Shown here: piece by piece, positions 5,207 through 20,299 of the stretch
How the letters are laid out: each line of letters begins with the position of its first letter
How positions within the stretch are numbered: the stretch's first letter is position 1
Program-made: the position numbers and the translations under genes
DNA from: Edaphobacter sp.
GTDB taxonomy: Bacteria; Acidobacteriota; Terriglobia; Terriglobales; Acidobacteriaceae
Length of the DNA stretch: 64,000 nucleotides
Direction of reading: 5' to 3'
Assembly: GCF_028283685.1 (NCBI RefSeq)
Contig: NZ_JAPWKF010000002.1
Coordinates: 1-64,000 of the forward strand
Notes under the pieces: model-generated
The model's database searches: none
The model's input: only the letters and a program-made list of their open reading frames with translations
What the model was told of the DNA's origin: nothing

Positions 5207-7714
5207 ATGTCCACGGTATGGAGGATGGGCGGCGCGTTCGCGTTGGTCGCCGCAAGTCTGACGGTAGGAGCGCAGAGCGCGGGAGAGGGCGTGCTGTCTG
5301 GACAGGTCACTGACCTGGGGAGCGCCGCGATCGTTGGTGCGCAGATCGAAGCGCACGCTGTTCACGGAGGCGCAGTGCTGCATTCGGTCAGCGATCAGCA
5401 AGGGCGATTCTCGTTTTCCGGTGTGGCTGCGGGAGCGTATCACCTGCGCGCCGCGCACGACGGTTTCCAGGAGAAGCAGCAGGAGATCGACGTCATCGCA
5501 GGCCAGGGGGCCGTGGTGAAGCTGGCGCTTCCCGTCTCCACGCTTACGCAGAATGTGACGGTCGAGGCGCAGCCCGCGCTGATGACCGAGACGCCTGCAA
5601 GCCAGACGCAGGCGCAGGTCAGCCGCGAAGACTTCAAGAACTCTCCCGCGACGACCATCGCTGACGTGCTCAGCCTGGTCCCCGGCGTCACCTTTGTGCA
5701 GGGCAATGGACCGCGCGATGTGGCGGTCTCGGTGCGCGGAGCCAGCAATCGTCAGATCTACGGCGTGCGTAATGTTCAACTGTTTGAAGATGGGTTCCCC
5801 GTCACCCAGCCCGACGGCCTGGGACGCACGGACCTCACCGATCCGCACGCCTACAGCAGCATCGACGTGGTGGAGGGGCCATCGTCGGCTCTGTACGGAA
5901 ACTATGCGACCGGCGGCGCAATCAACTTTCACACGCGTAGCGGCTCGGAGATTCAGGGGCTCGAGGTGGGCGCTGACTTCGGCAGCTTCGGCTACTACAA
6001 CGACTATGCGACGTATGGCGCAGGCAACGATCGCTACCAGTTCTCCGGCTTCGTCAGCAACGTTCGAGCCGACCAGGCGACGGTCAACAATCAATACAAC
6101 ACCGTCACGGTCAACCTGCTGGCCACCTTCGCTGCGACGCCGCGCGATCGCATGACCTTCAAGTTCATCAACAATGATCTCGACACCAATCTTTCGATTC
6201 GTCTCTCGCGCAATCAGTACCAGCTGAACCCTTACCAGCAGGGCTGCCAGGTCTACAACGCTGGCTTTGCCTCCAACGGTTGCTCCAGCATCAGCGTGTA
6301 CGCCAACGGTTTCAACGGGACGACGCAGTCGCTGGGCGCAGCGCAGGCAGGGCTCAACCGGCACGACCGCCGCACCATCGTGGGTGCGCGCTACGAGCAT
6401 GACCTGACGCACAACACCACATGGCAGACGCAGTTCGTCTGGGACAACCGCGATGCCAATCAGCCTACGTCGGCCTCGGCTTATCGTGGAACGCTGCCGT
6501 CCTTCAACGTCGTCAGCAACCTGCTGCGCCGCGGCCTCTTCGCGGGGAAGCAGTCGACGACTTATGTCGCGGGCTCGTTCAACTACGAGAACATCAACTC
6601 GCAGAGCGCGAACCTGATGCCCGGCGGGAAGGCGGCTCTCGGCGGTACGACACAGATCGTCGTCGGAACCCACAGCAACAGCGGCTTCCGCGTGCGTGAG
6701 GAGCTTGCGCTGGCCGAGCGCTGGGTGCTGGTTGCAGGACTCGGCGGTGAGTACACGGCGCTGAATGCGCTGGCGCAGAACTACACCTATCCCGTCGGCG
6801 GAACGCCGGCGATCTCGCCGGTGAACGCCGACCGAACCTTCTTCAATCTCGCGCCCGAGGTCGGCGTGCAGTTCCATCCGGATCGCGCACTGCGGCTGCA
6901 TGCGCGTCTTGGCACGGGTTACGGAACGCCGCAGGCGACGCAGTTGTTTACCAATGCGCAAGGCCAGTTTGGCAATAACATCACGCTGAAGACGCAGCGC
7001 AACATCGGCGTCGATGGCGGAGCGGACTGGATGTTCGGATCATCGCTGCAGCTCTCCGCTGCGGTCTTCTACGAGTGGTTTCATAACGAGCAGGTCACGC
7101 AGTCGCCGGGAGTCAATCTGCAGAGCTATACCTTCAACGCTCCCGCCTCCGCGCATCGCGGTGTGCAGGCCAGCGTGGACTGGCACCCTCTGCCGCAGAC
7201 GTTCTCCGGACTGCGGTTGCGCGCGTCGTACCTGTACGACAACCAGATCTACACCGACTACACTGAGCAGCTCACGACGGGCAGCGCAACCAACAGCTTC
7301 TCGCGGAGTGGGAATCGAATCCCCGGCGTGCAGCCGCATTATCTGAATGCGCGTGTGGTGTACGACCAGCCTTCGGGGCTGATGCGTGGCTTCGGCGCAT
7401 ACGTGGAGACGAACTGGCGCGCCAACTATGTGCTCGACAACGCGAATCTTCTCTCTGCACCGGGCTACACGCTCTGGAACCTGAGCACGCACTACGATCC
7501 ACCTGCGGGTCACGGCGCGCTCTCGCGGCTGCGTTTCTTCTTCGATCTGCAGAACCTCACCAACAAAACCTACATCGCCTCGGCGGGCAACCTCACCAAT
7601 TCGCTGAACGCGCAGGGACAGCAGAACGGCGCAGCGGTGTTGATGAATGCGTCGGGTTCGATCTATGCCGGAACGCCGCGTGCTTCCTACGGTGGCGTGA
7701 GGGTGCGCTTTTGA
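5207..7714 (+). CDS. TonB-dependent receptor, probably for a metal or metal complex
   Basis: An 835-residue outer-membrane receptor. It has a signal peptide (about 1-22), a carboxypeptidase-like regulatory domain (about 28-110), a plug with DVLSLVPGVTFVQG, VSVRGASNRQIYG and SIDVVEGPSSALYGNYATGGAINF, and a long barrel ending in the aromatic-terminated strand YGGVRVRF. It is much shorter than the Oar-like receptors elsewhere in this window and closer to classical siderophore/copper receptors. A GAGAGG ribosome site precedes the ATG. It lies 151 bases after the Cys/His-rich protein and 61 bases before the PepSY protein, suggesting a metal-uptake operon. Confidence 0.9.
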   Translation: MSTVWRMGGAFALVAASLTVGAQSAGEGVLSGQVTDLGSAAIVGAQIEAHAVHGGAVLHSVSDQQGRFSFSGVAAGAYHLRAAHDGFQEKQQEIDVIAGQGAVVKLALPVSTLTQNVTVEAQPALMTETPASQTQAQVSREDFKNSPATTIADVLSLVPGVTFVQGNGPRDVAVSVRGASNRQIYGVRNVQLFEDGFPVTQPDGLGRTDLTDPHAYSSIDVVEGPSSALYGNYATGGAINFHTRSGSEIQGLEVGADFGSFGYYNDYATYGAGNDRYQFSGFVSNVRADQATVNNQYNTVTVNLLATFAATPRDRMTFKFINNDLDTNLSIRLSRNQYQLNPYQQGCQVYNAGFASNGCSSISVYANGFNGTTQSLGAAQAGLNRHDRRTIVGARYEHDLTHNTTWQTQFVWDNRDANQPTSASAYRGTLPSFNVVSNLLRRGLFAGKQSTTYVAGSFNYENINSQSANLMPGGKAALGGTTQIVVGTHSNSGFRVREELALAERWVLVAGLGGEYTALNALAQNYTYPVGGTPAISPVNADRTFFNLAPEVGVQFHPDRALRLHARLGTGYGTPQATQLFTNAQGQFGNNITLKTQRNIGVDGGADWMFGSSLQLSAAVFYEWFHNEQVTQSPGVNLQSYTFNAPASAHRGVQASVDWHPLPQTFSGLRLRASYLYDNQIYTDYTEQLTTGSATNSFSRSGNRIPGVQPHYLNARVVYDQPSGLMRGFGAYVETNWRANYVLDNANLLSAPGYTLWNLSTHYDPPAGHGALSRLRFFFDLQNLTNKTYIASAGNLTNSLNAQGQQNGAAVLMNASGSIYAGTPRASYGGVRVRF

Positions 7715-12983: not shown

Positions 12984-14588
12984 TTACTGCGCTGCCTGAT
13001 CGAGGTGCAGGATGGCGCCGTGCTCGTTCAGGTTCTTCTGCAGCTCGGCCACGCTGATCTTCTGGACAGGTATTTTCGCGTGAACCGCCATTGCCGCAGC
13101 CACTCCCGCAGCCTGCCCGACGATCATGTACTGAGGCTCCATTCGCACCGAGGAATAGGCCACATGCGAGGCCGAAAGGCAGACCGGCACCAGCAGATTC
13201 TCCGCCTCCTGTGGCTTGGGGAGGATTGATCGGAAGGAGATCTCGTACGGGTTCACCGGCACCTGCACATCGCCCTCGTTTCGCACGGAGCCGTCGGGCA
13301 TGGCGACGCGCTGAATATTGTGCGAGTCGCTGTTGTAGGAGCCCATGCCGACCGAGTCCGGCTTCGTGCGATCGGTCTGCAGGTCGGCCTGATGCATCAC
13401 GTACTCGCCCACCATGCGCCGTCCCTCGCGGATGTAGAGCTGGTTGGGCCAGTGGTCGGTGTCGGCGAACTCGTCTTTGGCGCGTCCCCAACTATTTGTT
13501 TCAGCGCGCAATGACTCCGGCACGCTCGGGTCGGAGGACAGAAACCACAGAAAAGACTGGGTATAGAGCATGTGCGCGTCCCAGATGCGTTTGCGCTCGG
13601 CGTAGCTGGCGTCGGGATAGCTCCAGCTTTTTCCGATGTAGTCGGTCGAAAACGGGCCATTGTTATTAAAGTCGGCCTCGTGGTTGGGAATCGCGACCGG
13701 ATTCATCACGTCGCCCAGCTTCGGCGCGCGGTTCATGTGCTCGGGGAACTCCTTCAGGTAGCGTGCCAGCAGGGCAAATCGCGCGGCGTTGTATCCGGCG
13801 GGCCTGGTCCAGGGAAGCCGGTTCGCCGGATCGTTGGTCAGGATCAGGCGAAGGTTATACGACTGCACCTTCTTGTCGCCCTCGCCGTTGTCTCCCATGG
13901 GGCCGGGATCGACCTCCGGCATCAGCTTGTGATGGTCGTCGTAGGGCGAGATCTTCCAGCGGAACTGATGCTGCGGCGTGTCCACGCGGACGCCAGCCAG
14001 GCTCTCGTCATAGACCTTGGTCGATTCGCGGCCGACGGTATAGGTGATCTTTGCCTGCGCCATCAGATCGCCCTCGTAGGAGCAGTCGGCGTAGACCTTC
14101 GCCTCCCAGCTCTTGCCGTCTTCGGTGGCAAGGCCTGTGACGTGCGTACCCGTCTTCGTGACGCCGCCCTTCTCCTTCAGGCGCTCGTGAAAGCGGACCT
14201 CGACGCCGGTCTTCTTCAGCCACTCGGTAAAGATGGCCTCGCCGACGTGGGGCTCGGAGAGCCAGTCGAACCGTTCATCGAGGGTCTCCGACTGCGGGCC
14301 GTAATGGGCTGCCGCCTGGCGATAGAAGTCGCGGGCATAACCGCCGATGACGTGAAAGTTGGCGGTATCGGTGGCAGACAGCCCGCCAGTCACCATGCCG
14401 CCGAGGTGCGTCCCCGGCTCCAGCAGGATCACGTGCAGACCCTCCCGCGCCGCGGCGTAGGAGGTCATCACACCGGAGGCCGTTCCTCCGTAGACGATCA
14501 GGTCGGCTTGCTGCGCGGGAGGTACCGCCGCAAAGGCCGAAGTGGTAACAGAAAATAGAGCAGGCAAAAGAATGCGTAAAGATCTCAT
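12984..14588 (-). CDS. Secreted FAD-dependent oxidoreductase (FAD_oxidored family)
   Basis: A protein of about 534 residues with a signal peptide (about 1-20) and an N-terminal Rossmann motif DLIVYGGTASGVMTSYAAAREG, followed by ILLEPGTHLGGMVTGG, typical of the FAD-binding oxidoreductase family PF12831. A second nucleotide-related segment near the C-terminus (MIVGQAAGVAAAMA) closes the FAD domain. The substrate is unknown. An alternative ATG six codons upstream (14606) is possible; neither has a clear ribosome site, and 14588 gives the cleaner signal peptide. It follows the membrane regulator by 63 bases and precedes the Oar-like receptor, so it probably acts on what that receptor brings in. 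Confidence 0.85.
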   Translation of the reverse strand: MRSLRILLPALFSVTTSAFAAVPPAQQADLIVYGGTASGVMTSYAAAREGLHVILLEPGTHLGGMVTGGLSATDTANFHVIGGYARDFYRQAAAHYGPQSETLDERFDWLSEPHVGEAIFTEWLKKTGVEVRFHERLKEKGGVTKTGTHVTGLATEDGKSWEAKVYADCSYEGDLMAQAKITYTVGRESTKVYDESLAGVRVDTPQHQFRWKISPYDDHHKLMPEVDPGPMGDNGEGDKKVQSYNLRLILTNDPANRLPWTRPAGYNAARFALLARYLKEFPEHMNRAPKLGDVMNPVAIPNHEADFNNNGPFSTDYIGKSWSYPDASYAERKRIWDAHMLYTQSFLWFLSSDPSVPESLRAETNSWGRAKDEFADTDHWPNQLYIREGRRMVGEYVMHQADLQTDRTKPDSVGMGSYNSDSHNIQRVAMPDGSVRNEGDVQVPVNPYEISFRSILPKPQEAENLLVPVCLSASHVAYSSVRMEPQYMIVGQAAGVAAAMAVHAKIPVQKISVAELQKNLNEHGAILHLDQAAQ

Positions 14589-14638
14589 GGCCGATGATGG
14601 TGCCATGCCGTAACCATGATTGGCACGTTTCCTGCGGT

Positions 14639-14657
14639 ATGTTACGCGCTGTTACAT
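14639..14657. promoter_or_regulatory. Imperfect inverted repeat with GTTAC half-sites
   Basis: ATGTTAC, a 5-base spacer, then GTTACAT: a 7-bp inverted repeat with one mismatch. It overlaps the stop codon of the regulator gene and lies 50-70 bases before the FAD oxidoreductase start. The half-site resembles those in the 12911-12937 palindrome, so both may bind one regulator; this is inference. Confidence 0.4.
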
Positions 14658-15968
14658 CGAATTTGCAGGGGCTTGCGCGCGATAGGCGTGCATGGCGACC
14701 GGCCATGATCGCAGCGGTTTATTGCTCTCCACCTCGGTCTGGACGACCATCTCGAAGAAGGGTGGCGAGCCGTGCCGTCGCCACATCTCGTCGATCGAGT
14801 TCGACCCGGCCGACGAAGAGAGTAGAGTCACCATCGCCCCCGTACGTGCCGACTCCAACAGCAGTAGCTTCAGCCCGGGAGCCCGCCCCGGCAGCAGCGC
14901 GATGATCGATGGTTCAATGCTGCGTTGCGCTCCCACACTCACCCGGTCGTAGCGAGCCTGTTCCGACGGCGCCGGACTGGCGTTGGCCACCCAGCGTTCG
15001 TTCATCGACAGGGTGAAGTTCAGCGTCTGGAGGTAAGCATGGAATGGCTGCATCGTCTGATGCGTGCCCAGCATAATGACATTGGCCTCTTCGAGCACCA
15101 TCATCGAGGAGTCGCGGCTCACGTCGAAGGAGACGCGCTGTTTGGCTCCCACCGAGTCGAGATAGCGTGCCATGTCGATCGCCGCCAGCGTATCCCAGGT
15201 GACGGTATAGGGCATCTCCACGCCCGGCGTCCCCAGGTTCTTGATCAGATCGCGAAATTGAGGGTCATCGTCGATGTGGCTATAGTCGTTGACCTTCGTC
15301 GAGCGAAGGCGGAAGGTGGGTGCTCCGGAGAAATGAAAGAACACAGGTGTCGGCAGGATGATCTTGATGGGCTCCTCGCCCTGCAGAAAACGCGCCCAGA
15401 AGGTGGTCGGCTTCGGCTGCTCGACGGCATAGCTCTTCTGCAGCGTGTGATATTTCCAACCCAGCAGGCCAACGGTGACCGCAAGCGCAAGGCATAATCC
15501 TGCGAGTACCGGAAGCAGGTATGGCCGCAGCCCGTCCGTCCACGATGTTTCGACAGGGAGCGCAATCTCTTCGGGCTCCTCGACCGTGGGCAACGGGTCG
15601 AGCGCCATCAGTTGATGGGTGCCGGTCGGGATGACCAGCATCTCCGTCTCACCCGGCTCGCTCTGGTAATAGTCCTTCAGCTTCCGGCGCAGGCGCGAGA
15701 TGTGTACACGTACGGAGGCATCCACCGTGGAGTCGAAGCTGCTGTTTCGTCCCAGCGCCTCGGTCGCGATGGCGTATTCGCTGACCGTCTCACGGCGCTG
15801 CTCCCACAGGTACGCGAGCAGCTTGCGCTGCGTCTCTGCACGGGCAAACTGCGGGCTCTGCAGAATGTGCTGGACATGCGCCTCCAGGCCGTCGCCTGCC
15901 TCAGAGGGTCGTGCCGGACGTTGCATCTCCGAAGGTGGCGGTGTGGCGATGTCTGCCATGCACGGCAT
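14652..15968 (-). CDS. Membrane-anchored winged-helix transcriptional regulator (CadC/ToxR-like layout)
   Basis: A protein of about 438 residues. A cytoplasmic winged-helix domain (about residues 27-120) includes SVRVHISRLRRKLKDYY, the recognition-helix region of OmpR/CadC-type domains. A single membrane helix lies at about 149-171 (LLPVLAGLCLALAVTVGLLGW) and a non-cytoplasmic sensor-like domain of about 260 residues follows. This layout suits direct coupling of an outside signal to transcription. The longer open frame upstream would overlap the SGNH gene, so the start is placed at 15968 (or 15959), five bases after the SGNH stop. Likely targets are the neighbouring oxidoreductase and receptor genes. 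Confidence 0.8.
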   Translation of the reverse strand: MPCMADIATPPPSEMQRPARPSEAGDGLEAHVQHILQSPQFARAETQRKLLAYLWEQRRETVSEYAIATEALGRNSSFDSTVDASVRVHISRLRRKLKDYYQSEPGETEMLVIPTGTHQLMALDPLPTVEEPEEIALPVETSWTDGLRPYLLPVLAGLCLALAVTVGLLGWKYHTLQKSYAVEQPKPTTFWARFLQGEEPIKIILPTPVFFHFSGAPTFRLRSTKVNDYSHIDDDPQFRDLIKNLGTPGVEMPYTVTWDTLAAIDMARYLDSVGAKQRVSFDVSRDSSMMVLEEANVIMLGTHQTMQPFHAYLQTLNFTLSMNERWVANASPAPSEQARYDRVSVGAQRSIEPSIIALLPGRAPGLKLLLLESARTGAMVTLLSSSAGSNSIDEMWRRHGSPPFFEMVVQTEVESNKPLRSWPVAMHAYRAQAPANSM

Positions 15969-15973
15969 TCTAT

Positions 15974-16711
15974 CTACTGTGCTGTACGACTGTCTCGGCC
16001 CGCTGTCCGCTCCTGATGGAAGAGCCGCTGCAGCTGCGCGGGATAGGTCTGTTTGCCTTCGGCTGCAACTCCCGGTGCCCTGACTCCGATACCGTACGTC
16101 AGGCTGTCGCCCATGCAAAGGACCGTATCGGTATCCCTCATCCGGGAGGGCAGCGCAGAGCGAACGGTCTCTGCGAGCAAAGCATAGCCCTTCGCCGTGA
16201 GATGAACGCCATCGGTGCTTAACTCGTCCGTCGGGCCTCCGGCGCGAATCAACGCTGCGTGGAAGTCAGCGACCGCCATTTTGTCTGTGTGCGCAATGTG
16301 CTCAAGCGCGTCATCGAGCCGCCTGATTCGTTCCTCCGGAGAGACATCTCCGTAGACGCTGGCGTTGTGCCGCTGCAGCAGCCGCTTCGTGTCGGGCTCG
16401 TGAACGAGCACGATCACAACCGTCGCGCCCGCATCCCGCGAGCGCTTCACCATCGAAGAGACATGCTCTGCCGTCTGCTTGACGGGGAGAAACTTCTTAT
16501 CGTTGACCGCATCGTTCATGCCGACAAAGATCACGACAGCCTGCGGATGATATTGCGTGAGGGCCTTGTCCAAACGCAGATCGACCTCGGCGCTGCTCTC
16601 GCCCGGCACGCCATCATTCACGACGCGGACGGCGGCTTGTGAGGCACAGCAGAGAGCGGGAATGGCGCAGAGCGCAACAAGAGAGAGCGCGATGAACCGT
16701 CTTTTACGCAC
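15974..16711 (-). CDS. Secreted SGNH hydrolase with circularly permuted motif order
   Basis: A 245-residue protein with a signal peptide (about 1-26). All four SGNH/GDSL blocks are present but in an unusual order: block II (NDGVPGESS, 32-40), block III (GMND, 64-67), block V (TDGVHLTAKGY, 166-176) and only then block I (CMGDSLTYGIG, 199-209), near the C-terminus. In the usual family (for example TesA) block I is N-terminal and is followed by a YPAQL-type helix and then block II. Here the C-terminus ends shortly after TYPAQLQRLFHQ and the mature N-terminus begins just before block II. Catalytic Ser203, Asp167 and His170 are all there, so an esterase or lipase is plausible. It is the first gene of the regulator-oxidoreductase group. 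Confidence 0.85.
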   Translation of the reverse strand: MRKRRFIALSLVALCAIPALCCASQAAVRVVNDGVPGESSAEVDLRLDKALTQYHPQAVVIFVGMNDAVNDKKFLPVKQTAEHVSSMVKRSRDAGATVVIVLVHEPDTKRLLQRHNASVYGDVSPEERIRRLDDALEHIAHTDKMAVADFHAALIRAGGPTDELSTDGVHLTAKGYALLAETVRSALPSRMRDTDTVLCMGDSLTYGIGVRAPGVAAEGKQTYPAQLQRLFHQERTAGRDSRTAQ

Positions 16712-16746: not shown

Positions 16747-18162
16747 TTATTGAACCGTCTGTGTCGTCAAGGCCCGCGCGGCATTGCGGGAGTCGCGGAT
16801 CAGGTCGGGCAGACCGACGCCGCGATAGCCGTTGCCCAACAACACAAGATTGCCGATTGTGTCGATCCTGCGCTCCAGCTCGGCCATGCGCTCCAGATGA
16901 CCGACGGCATACTGCGGCAGCGAGAGCGGAAGTCTGCGCACAACGGTGACGCGCGGCTCCGGCAGTGGCCCGAGGATGCGTGCCAGCTCCAGGCGGGCGA
17001 CAGCGGCGATCTCGTCGTTGCCGCAGCGCATCAGCCGTTCGGCTGCGTGTCCGCCAAAGAAGGCGCGCAGCAGGCATCCGCCTTTCGGAATGCGTCCGGC
17101 GTATTTCTGATGCATAAAGGTACACGCCATCAGCAGCGTGTTCTCCGCTGATCCGGGAGGGACGAGGAAACCGAAGCCAGGTGGCAGTGTGATCTGCTTG
17201 CCATCTTCAAAGCCGAAGCCGACCACGACGGCTGAACTGGCCTCCTCGGGCATGAGCGGCTTGATCTCCGCATCAAGCGGAGTCAGAAGCTCACTGGCTA
17301 CATGCACCGGAGTTGCCAGCAGTACGGTATCGAAGTGTTCCGTCTCTGTTGGTCCGTGGCTCACGGAGAAGCTGATCTGCCAACCGCTTTTGTCGCGCTC
17401 GAGTGCGGTCACCTTTGTGCCGAGCCGCACCCACGTCGGAGGAATCGCCGCAACCATACGATCGATCAGCGTGCCGAGACCGCTGCGCAACGAGGTGAAG
17501 ATCGAACTCTTCTTTCCACTTCCAACTTTGGCGCGCAGTGCCTCGATGAGGCTGCCGTGTTCGCGCTCCATTGCGACGAAAGGGGCCATTACCGCGCGTA
17601 CGCTCAACTTTGAGACATCGCCGCCCAGCACGCCGCTCAGCAGAGGTGCGCCGATCTTCACCAGCACCTCGTTGCCGAAGTGCCGTTCGACAAATGCGGC
17701 AACGCTTTCGTCATGATCCGGCGCCGCAGCTTTCAACTCTTCGGCGCGGTTCACTTCGTCGTGAAAGGCCGCGCGGGCCGTGTCGCTGAAGAGAGTGGTG
17801 GCATCCAGTGCTGCCAGGTCTGTCGGCACCATCATGCGCATGCCGTCGGGCACGGGTTTCAGCACGCCGTCGACCAGCACATATGTTCTGCGGCCCTCAT
17901 CGCTGGAAGGGAGGAGTTCATCCTCAAGCCCCAGCTCTACCGCCAGCTCACGCGCCCATGGCTTCTCGGTCACCCATCCGTCTGGCCCGCCTTCGATCAC
18001 GAAGCCGCCTTCACGGATCGTCTCAACAATGCCACCCAGCCGCGACGATGCCTCAAAGAGCGTGACCTTGATCTCGCCGCCATGATGACGACGCGAGCTT
18101 GCCAGCTCATACGCCGCTGCGACGCCCGCAGTTCCGCCGCCAATGATGGCGATTCGCTTCAC
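16747..18162 (-). CDS. hemG: Protoporphyrinogen oxidase (HemY-type, oxygen-dependent)
   Basis: A 471-residue FAD enzyme that oxidises protoporphyrinogen IX (or coproporphyrinogen III in some lineages) to the porphyrin. The N-terminal IAIIGGGTAGVAAAYEL is the FAD Rossmann motif, followed by FEASSRLGGIVETI and the VIEGGPDGWVTEKP signature of the PPOX family; the C-terminal GNGYRGVGLPDLI closes the FAD site. Length matches HemY-type enzymes (about 470). The start codon is GTG and overlaps the ferrochelatase stop as GTGA, a sign of translational coupling. It is the third gene of hemE-hemH-hemG. The gene symbol hemY is also used. Confidence 0.93.
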   Translation of the reverse strand: MKRIAIIGGGTAGVAAAYELASSRRHHGGEIKVTLFEASSRLGGIVETIREGGFVIEGGPDGWVTEKPWARELAVELGLEDELLPSSDEGRRTYVLVDGVLKPVPDGMRMMVPTDLAALDATTLFSDTARAAFHDEVNRAEELKAAAPDHDESVAAFVERHFGNEVLVKIGAPLLSGVLGGDVSKLSVRAVMAPFVAMEREHGSLIEALRAKVGSGKKSSIFTSLRSGLGTLIDRMVAAIPPTWVRLGTKVTALERDKSGWQISFSVSHGPTETEHFDTVLLATPVHVASELLTPLDAEIKPLMPEEASSAVVVGFGFEDGKQITLPPGFGFLVPPGSAENTLLMACTFMHQKYAGRIPKGGCLLRAFFGGHAAERLMRCGNDEIAAVARLELARILGPLPEPRVTVVRRLPLSLPQYAVGHLERMAELERRIDTIGNLVLLGNGYRGVGLPDLIRDSRNAARALTTQTVQ

Positions 18163-19166
18163 GCGGACCTCGTTACAGATTCCTCAACGCTCACCTCGGC
18201 CTCGCGGACGATCTGTGCCAGCGCCTGCGTCAGCACCGGCGAATCGTTCAGGCTCTCGGCGCGCCATAGCTTCATGCCCATTCCGGAGGCCATCTCGCGG
18301 AAGGCGATATCGATGTCGTACAGAATCTCGACGTGATCGCAGAGAAAACCGATCGGCTGCATCACGACGCCTTCGTGGCCCTCTTCGTGCAGCGCCTTCA
18401 ATGTGTCTTCCACGGTCGGCCCAATCCATGGACCGCCGCTGACGCCCTGGCTCTGAAACGCGAAGTACCAGTCAGAATCCTTGAAGCCGACCGCCGCCAG
18501 CCGCTCTGCGACCAGCTCCGCAGTGCGCTTTGCCTCGACGGGATACGGGTCCGGCGAGTCCTGCATCGGGGTTCCCGGGCGCGCTCCAGCAATAGAGGCC
18601 TCGCCGGTCATGATGGTGCGGCAGGGGACGCTGTGAGCGGTGAACAGCACCGGCACGCGGTGGCCGGTCTCTGCGCACGCCGTGGCCCATACCGGCCACA
18701 GCTTCTCGGCGAACGCCTGCGCCAGCAGCGGATTCTCCGCCCATCCCGCAACAAACTCGACTGTCATCTCCGTCGCGGCGCTCATCAGCGCACGGCGATA
18801 GAGACCAACACTGGTGCGAGAGTTCTGTGGCGCAAGGCAGATGGCGCGAATGTGGGTCACGCCGTCCTCGCGCATCTTCGCGACGACATCGGCTATATAA
18901 GGATGCCAGTTGCGCATCGCCGCGTAGACCGGCGCACCGTCCAGCTCCTCTGCGAGCAGACGGCGCTGCTCCAGCGTCCACCTGGTGAGGTGCGGCGGCT
19001 CCGTTCCCGGAGTCTCCTTCAAACCGATCAGCGCATAACGATGCTTTAGTTCGTCGACGACGGCATCGGGCAGGGCACGTCCGCCGGTCACCTTGCTTAG
19101 ATACTCGGCCATCTCACCCAGAACATCCGGGGTCCCGTGGGCCAGCAGCAGGACGGCTTTGCTCAT
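18159..19166 (-). CDS. hemH: Ferrochelatase
   Basis: A protein of about 335 residues that inserts Fe2+ into protoporphyrin IX (or coproporphyrin III). The start MSKAVLLLAHGTPD is the usual ferrochelatase N-terminus; the catalytic His lies in VLFTAHSVPCRTI, and the QPIGFLCDHVEILYDID block near the C-terminus holds the acidic metal-path residues. The ATG at 19166 overlaps the hemE stop as ATGA; an 8-codon longer frame upstream is less likely. It sits between hemE and hemG with overlaps on both sides, so the three late haem genes are translated together. Confidence 0.95.
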   Translation of the reverse strand: MSKAVLLLAHGTPDVLGEMAEYLSKVTGGRALPDAVVDELKHRYALIGLKETPGTEPPHLTRWTLEQRRLLAEELDGAPVYAAMRNWHPYIADVVAKMREDGVTHIRAICLAPQNSRTSVGLYRRALMSAATEMTVEFVAGWAENPLLAQAFAEKLWPVWATACAETGHRVPVLFTAHSVPCRTIMTGEASIAGARPGTPMQDSPDPYPVEAKRTAELVAERLAAVGFKDSDWYFAFQSQGVSGGPWIGPTVEDTLKALHEEGHEGVVMQPIGFLCDHVEILYDIDIAFREMASGMGMKLWRAESLNDSPVLTQALAQIVREAEVSVEESVTRSA

Positions 19167-20299
19167 CGTGCGCCAAACTCCTTCACCCATTCGACTGTCT
19201 TAATTACGTTGTCGACCGGCGTGCCCGGCACGATGCCGTGGCCCAGGTTGAAGATGTGGCCCGGCCGTCCGGCGGCCGCATCCATCACCTCGCGCACGCG
19301 CTCCCGCAGAACATCCTCCGGGGCAAACAGCGCGATCGGGTCAAGATTGCCCTGCACGGCGCAGCCCTCGCCGACGGCCTTCCAGCCTTCAGCCAAAGGA
19401 ATCCGCCAGTCGAGGCCGATCACGTCGGCTCCCGTCTCGCGCATCGTCGGCAGCAGTGAGGCAGTATCGACGCCGAAGTAGATGACCGGTACGCCGAGCG
19501 CGCGCACCCGTTGCACCAGCTCCGTCGTCGGCTTCAGGCAGTAGGCGCGATAGTCGGTGACGCTCAGCGCGCCTGCCCAGCTGTCGAAGATCTGGATGAC
19601 GTCGGCTCCGGCCTCGACCTGTTGCGCGGCGTAGGCCACCAGCACCTCGACCAGCTTCTCCATCAGCAGCGGCCATGAGACGCTGTCGCCGTACATCATG
19701 CGCTTGGTCTCTATATAGTTGCGCGACGAGCTGCCCTCGATCATGTAGCTGGCCAGGGTAAACGGCGCTCCGCAGAAGCCGATGATGCCCAGCTGATCGC
19801 CGTCGGCCCGCGGACCGGCAAAGTGCTTCGCTACCTTGCTGATGGCCTCGGCGACGTAGCCAAGTTCGGCGACGCGGTTGGTCTGCAAGGCGCGAACCTG
19901 CTCGGCGGTACGTACCGGCGCGTGGACGACCGGGCCTTCGCCGGCAAGAAATTCGAAGTCGACGCCCATTGGCGTGAAGGGAAGCAGAAGGTCGGCGAAG
20001 ATGATGGCCGCGTCCACGCCCAGCCGCTCGGCGGCCGTAATGGTCACCTCGGAGGCGATCTCGGGTGTCCGGCAGATCTCCAGCAGGGAGTGATGCTTGC
20101 GCACAGCCATGTATTCGGGCATGTAACGACCCGCCTGGCGCAGCAGCCAAACCGGCGTCCTGTCCACCGGCTGACGCAGGCAGGCGCGGACAAAACGGCT
20201 GCTGCCTGCCGGGTTTTTCTGTTTGCTCGTGGCCTGTTCCGGCGCTGTCGGGGCGTTGCTCAAAAGGCTCTCCATGACTCGTTCTTTTGAGCCTAGCAT
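19163..20299 (-). CDS. hemE: Uroporphyrinogen decarboxylase
   Basis: A 378-residue cytoplasmic enzyme removing four carboxyl groups from uroporphyrinogen III to give coproporphyrinogen III. The hallmark PVWLLRQAGRYMPEY is near the N-terminus and GFCGAPFTLASYMIEG in the middle; the catalytic Asp is in IIFADLLLPFTPMG. The first 30 or so residues are a non-conserved extension (Gln/Ala/Ser-rich); an ATG at 20275 is an alternative start. It is the first gene of hemE-hemH-hemG, and its stop overlaps the hemH start. Confidence 0.95.
   Translation of the reverse strand: MLGSKERVMESLLSNAPTAPEQATSKQKNPAGSSRFVRACLRQPVDRTPVWLLRQAGRYMPEYMAVRKHHSLLEICRTPEIASEVTITAAERLGVDAAIIFADLLLPFTPMGVDFEFLAGEGPVVHAPVRTAEQVRALQTNRVAELGYVAEAISKVAKHFAGPRADGDQLGIIGFCGAPFTLASYMIEGSSSRNYIETKRMMYGDSVSWPLLMEKLVEVLVAYAAQQVEAGADVIQIFDSWAGALSVTDYRAYCLKPTTELVQRVRALGVPVIYFGVDTASLLPTMRETGADVIGLDWRIPLAEGWKAVGEGCAVQGNLDPIALFAPEDVLRERVREVMDAAAGRPGHIFNLGHGIVPGTPVDNVIKTVEWVKEFGAR

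Follow-up and report, generated by a model that had tools for sequence, protein, structure and literature searches.

A probable natural circular permutant of TesA/Lipase_GDSL_2-type SGNH hydrolases, with the nucleophile block at the C-terminus, in Acidobacteriaceae

In the SGNH superfamily the conserved blocks follow one another in the order I-II-III-V. A gene of Edaphobacter sp., located in a stretch of 64,000 nucleotides (positions 1 to 64,000 of contig NZ_JAPWKF010000002.1, in the following called the window), encodes the same blocks in the order II-III-V-I (G-N-H-S), and the locus thus raises the question whether a C-terminal block I represents a true circular permutation of the fold. The coordinates given for this gene in a preliminary description were right, and the strand, which had not been stated there, is minus (Table 1). 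All four blocks lie in a single reading frame, and the chain ends at residue 245. Only 35 bases separate the end of the preceding gene (PPOX, 16747-18162) from the start codon, which leaves no space for a normal block I ahead of block II. The secretion signal that had been assigned to the new N-terminus was also seen here, as a signal-like stretch read by eye. With a probability of about 0.86, the gene codes for an SGNH hydrolase of the TesA/Lipase_GDSL_2 type that has been circularly permuted in nature, has an ordinary active site and acts as an exported ester hydrolase.

Table 1. Positions in the window of the permuted gene, its sequence blocks and its linked neighbours (residues refer to the permuted protein)
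Feature	Coordinates	Strand	Remarks
Circularly permuted SGNH hydrolase gene (proposed)	15974..16711	-	245 aa; GTG start; stop 15974-15976
Signal-like peptide, residues 1-26	16634..16711	-	Read by eye from the sequence; the block II strand follows a few residues later
Block II VNDGVPGE, residues 31-38	16598..16621	-	Gly34 and Gly37 in 17/17; aligns with block II of EstA and TesA
Block III GMND, residues 64-67	16511..16522	-	G, N and D in 17/17
Block V DGVH (Asp167, His170), residues 167-170	16202..16213	-	17/17
Linker from block V helix to block I strand, residues 186-195	16127..16156	-	Variable; joins the normal C- and N-termini
Block I GDSLT (putative nucleophile Ser203), residues 201-205	16097..16111	-	G, D and S in 17/17; near the C-terminus
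YPAQL, residues 223-227	16031..16045	-	YPxxL in 17/17; helix in both models; this helix normally leads into block II
Linked regulator, 435 aa	14652..15959	-	Winged-helix domain PF00486 and one hydrophobic segment by eye; recurrent neighbour
Linked FAD-dependent oxidoreductase, 540 aa	12984..14606	-	PF12831; signal-like N-terminus; recurrent neighbour

Full-length matches were present in 6 of 60 genomes of the same genus (the window's genome included) and, at a threshold of E 1e-30 or better, in 17 of 398 genomes of the family Acidobacteriaceae, belonging to 2 of 79 genera and including Terriglobus roseus DSM 18391; at this threshold the permuted gene was absent from the other 381. A search for homologues with a shared order had been proposed, and the order was indeed shared: in an alignment of the 17 proteins (start codons set by our own rule) each had an N-terminus that looked hydrophobic by eye, the blocks in the order II-III-V-I, and GDSLT(Y/F)GxGVR and YPxxL at the C-terminus. 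The preliminary reading of the single gene, with a start at block II and an end just after YPAQL, holds for all 17 genes, and so does the claim that all catalytic residues are kept, ten key residues (G34, G37, G64, N66, D67, D167, H170, G201, D202 and S203) being unchanged throughout. Mean column identity was highest in the block I core (0.88), compared with 0.49 in the linker, 0.46 in the signal region and 0.53 in the loop after block I. Among 1211 open reading frames of at least 150 residues, taken from loci picked by SGNH and regulator searches, the motif order III-V-I occurred in 17, all of which were the permuted genes.

Profile comparisons were performed with the protein as written and after its two halves had been exchanged in silico. 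As written, the protein matched PF13472 (Lipase_GDSL_2, its best Pfam match) in two stretches, the better of which covered profile positions 29-178 with 88.1 bits (Pfam curated cut-off 32.9); without the signal peptide 85.4 bits were obtained, and with the halves exchanged a single stretch covered positions 1-178 of 178 with 91.6 bits. PF00657 behaved likewise, with 54.6 bits as written, 52.5 without the signal and 63.9 after the exchange (one stretch, 1-207 of 208), so that with either profile of the parent family the exchange yielded a single, full-length match. The C-terminal 60 residues alone matched the beginning of both profiles (PF13472 positions 1-31, E 0.0028, 18.6 bits; PF00657 positions 1-32, E 0.03), and the corresponding segments of three of the 16 other carriers matched PF13472 from position 1 with E 0.0096, 0.015 and 0.098. 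As sequence matches these are weak and lie under the whole-protein cut-off of 32.9 bits, as expected with 30 positions. The protein has the block I Ser, block II Gly, block III Asn and block V DxxH of the PF13472 superfamily and exceeds the Pfam cut-off, but not the superfamily's block order; because of the order II-III-V-I we file it as a permuted variant and not as an ordinary member. DUF459 matched barely above its cut-off (28.4 versus 27.2 bits), and the NCBIfam models AxeA1 and TesA matched far under theirs.

AlphaFold models computed with two sequences were of medium confidence, both for the whole chain (mean pLDDT 68.2, pTM 0.70) and for residues 27-236 (mean pLDDT 72.5, pTM 0.78). Five main strands were predicted in both models: the first at block II, the second ahead of block III, then a further two and finally one at block I, after which comes the YPAQL helix. 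Foldseek searches returned EstA, TesA and 3p94 as best matches of the whole-chain model (13 with E <=0.001, SGNH-type) and 1yzf, 3mil and 4ppy as those of the residue 27-236 model (11 with E <=0.001, SGNH-type). In these alignments, which follow chain order and so do not locate the block I strand within the sheet, TM scores were about 0.4-0.55 when normalised to the model and about 0.5-0.6 when normalised to the target. The best structural matches of both models are ordinary SGNH esterases.

Comparisons with solved structures gave a mixed picture for the permutation. A single-sequence search of the PDB did not change when the halves were exchanged (1yzf, 42.5 and 42.1 bits). With a profile of ten exchanged sequences 49 distinct solved chains were matched, 25 of them from profile position 1-4 (for example 3mil, 2-188; Axe2 4oap, 2-193; E. 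coli TesA 1ivn, 2-114) and 24 from a position after block I, including the two best, 3p94 and 1yzf; the 1yzf match went from 77.6 bits without to 72.4 bits with the exchange, the row sets of the two profiles being different. The best stretches of a seven-row unexchanged profile all ended at or before position 192, apart from a short one, 186-206, that fell on the N-terminus of 5hoe. When a profile of the V-I junction was used, 4tx1 and 5hoe were each matched twice, at the N-terminus by the block I half and at the C-terminus by the block V half, the block V pieces not being significant alone (i-E 1500 and 130), and among the 27 matches listed no solved chain covered the junction in one piece.

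The circular permutation itself, as proposed in the preliminary description, is a well-supported reading of sequences and models, since the same order is found in 17 genomes, the exchange of halves gives a full-length match, the C-terminal segment falls at the start of the profile and the structural matches are of SGNH type. The protein has the four canonical blocks and the predicted fold in common with canonical TesA/Lipase_GDSL_2 hydrolases (E. coli TesA, EstA 3hp4, 1yzf, 3p94, Axe2); it differs from them in its order, in a chain that ends in the alpha1-beta2 loop and in a linker of about 10 residues that joins the normal termini. The break in the chain would lie in the loop that connects helix alpha1 with strand beta2. 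Once exported and freed of its signal, the protein would begin with beta2 (block II), continue with blocks III and V and, by way of the short linker that takes the place of the usual termini, end in beta1, the nucleophile elbow and alpha1. In the folded protein an ordinary active site would be expected, with a Ser203-His170-Asp167 triad and, by analogy, an oxyanion hole formed by the Ser203 NH, Gly37 and Asn66; these assignments are taken from TesA, to which we presume the residues correspond.

Four other explanations were weighed. From one genome alone it could not have been excluded that an assembly join, a frameshift or a chance motif had produced the C-terminal block I as an artefact, and a frame error or join at this place had been named beforehand as a danger to the permutation. 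It was looked for via the relatives and is ruled out by the 17 genomes, which share order and junction; moreover, the T. roseus DSM 18391 copy, with the same order, sits in a complete record (NC_018014.1), and for the block I part dN was lower than dS in each of the 5 pairs, out of 8, that allowed both to be estimated (e.g. 0.023/1.07, 0.035/0.448 and 0.121/0.493), leaving an artefact with a negligible probability. The same measure bears on a fold that is catalytically dead or re-purposed beside the FAD oxidoreductase, an explanation which could draw on the decay of the gene in two relatives (G644 and G057). Triad and oxyanion residues are nevertheless kept in 17/17, and dN was lower than dS in blocks II-V as well (all 6 of 8 pairs estimable), so that loss of catalysis appears very unlikely; esterase activity is probable, judging from the conserved residues and selection.

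Two further explanations accept a working SGNH fold. Block I at the C-terminus might complete the domain of a second copy in an obligate domain-swapped dimer, since terminal segments are readily swapped between domains, the linker has only about 10 residues and the loop after block I was modelled with pLDDT <50. Against this, in SGNH folds the usual N- and C-terminus are near each other, so about 10 residues should suffice to join them, and the single-chain models place a strand at block I and then the helix, which makes the swapped dimer unlikely. Alternatively, the protein might be a member of the permuted group already known, namely AlgJ, AlgX, PatB1 and WssI, which are likewise natural permutations of the SGNH fold in exported or membrane-anchored proteins. 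As described in a review (PMC9487903) and two primary papers (PMC4148444, PMC10302187), these have the order H-S-G-N (V-I-II-III) and altered motifs, with GTSYS or KDS in block I, a Tyr or an Asp in block III, and DxH or DHHW in block V. The present protein, in contrast, has the order G-N-H-S, canonical GDSLT, GxND and DGVH (DxxH) in 17/17 and a single compact domain; its best Pfam match is Lipase_GDSL_2, and an AlgX-type family was absent among the 6 Pfam families listed for it. Because of order and motifs we reject membership, which keeps only a very small residual probability.

The view that a permuted order is unusual for the family stood in part. A G-N-H-S order with canonical motifs was not found described in the open-access literature, and the accessible parts of PMC9487903, PMC4148444, PMC10302187, PMC3779223, PMC12419801, PMC5697884, PMC5408684, PMC2848206 and PMC13276840 do not mention it; permuted SGNH proteins as such, with another breakpoint, are already known. 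What may be new is the G-N-H-S order combined with canonical motifs. If the permutation is true, it would be a second, independent one of the SGNH fold, meaning that nature opened two different loops. It provides a natural test of how the fold tolerates a change of chain start, because the nucleophile, normally in the part of the chain that is made first, here lies in the part made last. None of the labels Lipase_GDSL_2, Lipase_GDSL and DUF459 (Pfam) or AxeA1 and TesA (NCBIfam) reveals the C-terminal block I, and such permutants can be missed because the Pfam labels denote a plain GDSL lipase.

The gene had been placed at the head of an operon with a membrane regulator. The regulator does follow, starting 14 bases past the stop codon, but the PPOX gene precedes the permuted gene on the same strand at the distance given above. 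Regulator genes were present in all 17 carriers, and in 11 of these the SGNH, regulator and FAD oxidoreductase genes were adjacent (with the pair divergent in two, G001 and T. roseus), counts which are not independent, the carrier genomes being related. In G712 the permuted gene and the regulator were adjacent and the contig then ended, in G021 the regulator/oxidoreductase pair lay about 4 kb away on the opposite strand, and in G396, G312, G270 and G650 the regulator was found elsewhere in the genome. Conversely, the regulator was detected at E 1e-50 or better in 13 of 250 family genomes, 10 of which carry the full-length permuted gene; of the other three, G644 retains a decayed fragment next to the regulator, and G669 and G527 have none in the fetched stretch. 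By motif, no normal-order SGNH reading frame was found near the regulator in 9 loci (L125-L133). These neighbours point to an unstudied module of esterase, FAD oxidoreductase and membrane regulator in soil acidobacteria, possibly under shared regulation. Within it, small acyl (probably acetyl) esters would be hydrolysed outside the cytoplasm, alongside the FAD oxidoreductase and under the membrane-anchored regulator; from export, family and company one might guess at an acetylated plant or bacterial polysaccharide as substrate.

Several other observations were made at these loci. The pair of regulator and FAD oxidoreductase recurs in the family (window 12984-15959, L090-L105, L125-L131), also without a nearby SGNH gene (G669, G527). 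Directly upstream of the permuted gene and on the same strand lie the hemE, ferrochelatase and protoporphyrinogen oxidase genes (window 16747-20299), and at 18 other loci, some of them cut by contig ends, hemE, hemH and PPOX gave no match. The decayed piece in G644, a genome of another genus in the family, is C-terminal (L125, 7395-7556), with the catalytic Ser replaced and the frames broken, still beside the regulator. In G057 (L106, within 5594-7076) a 79-codon N-terminal piece of the permuted gene is followed by a piece from the N-terminal part of the FAD oxidoreductase, with no regulator match within the fetched stretch.

Further permuted genes were searched for in wider sets. In the window's genome (G000) PF13472 gave 13 matches, 11 of which began at profile position 1-3; besides the permuted gene, whose match begins at 28, the other late-starting match (C8, from 29) has GDSLT ahead of the other blocks, i.e. 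the normal order, and was rejected. In a phylum list of 99 genomes, 8 of the matches listed began after position 10, of which 3 belonged to the permuted family and the remaining 5 had a normal-order block I of GSS or GAS type when read. When 396 phylum genomes were searched at E 1e-8 with no more than 7 candidates scored in each, the C-terminal block I was reached in 8 genomes, all of the same two genera, and by nothing outside them among the candidates scored. The same 8 were recovered at E 4.2e-36 or better with a junction profile of 81 positions (at most 14 candidates per genome); the other matches listed had E 2.6e-5 or weaker and none spanned the whole junction, the widest being 6-67, with an internal stop, and 21-80. 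Of 5 plasmid records matched, none covered 80% of the query at a single site, nor did either of 2 phage records. Two plasmid matches extended to residues 208-210; in each, the annotated GDSL gene begins well before the match and ends before the match end, and by these annotation coordinates both genes look normal in order. A scan of species genomes with strict short peptide patterns returned only T. roseus, and such patterns are a weak basis for absence elsewhere.

For the origin of the gene a quick, unrooted tree was calculated from the 17 permuted proteins and 18 of 56 collected canonical proteins, chosen for spread. All permuted proteins fell on one side of a branch with an SH-aLRT of 95; several forks were open and some branches long. 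The two genera were interleaved, G001 grouping with T. roseus, and G040 and G012 being placed with genes from the other genus, a pattern that suggests transfer between lineages or old copies over simple descent. Duplication followed by trimming is the usual route to circular permutation, and a single origin is probable here, in which a normal gene would have been duplicated and the outer ends lost, with a possible later passage between the two genera; a duplicated or intermediate form of the gene was not found. It is on the whole fairly probable that the 17 genes represent an undescribed, conserved class of SGNH permutation, defined by the G-N-H-S order, canonical motifs and opening between alpha1 and beta2, with a single origin in Acidobacteriaceae and forming one module with the regulator and an exported FAD oxidoreductase. 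Both this estimate and the confidence in the permutant were slightly lowered because the tree mixes genera and some structure searches gained nothing from the exchange of halves. In G025 (L045, 1210-2775) two normal-order SGNH genes lie in tandem, a layout that could give rise to a permutant.
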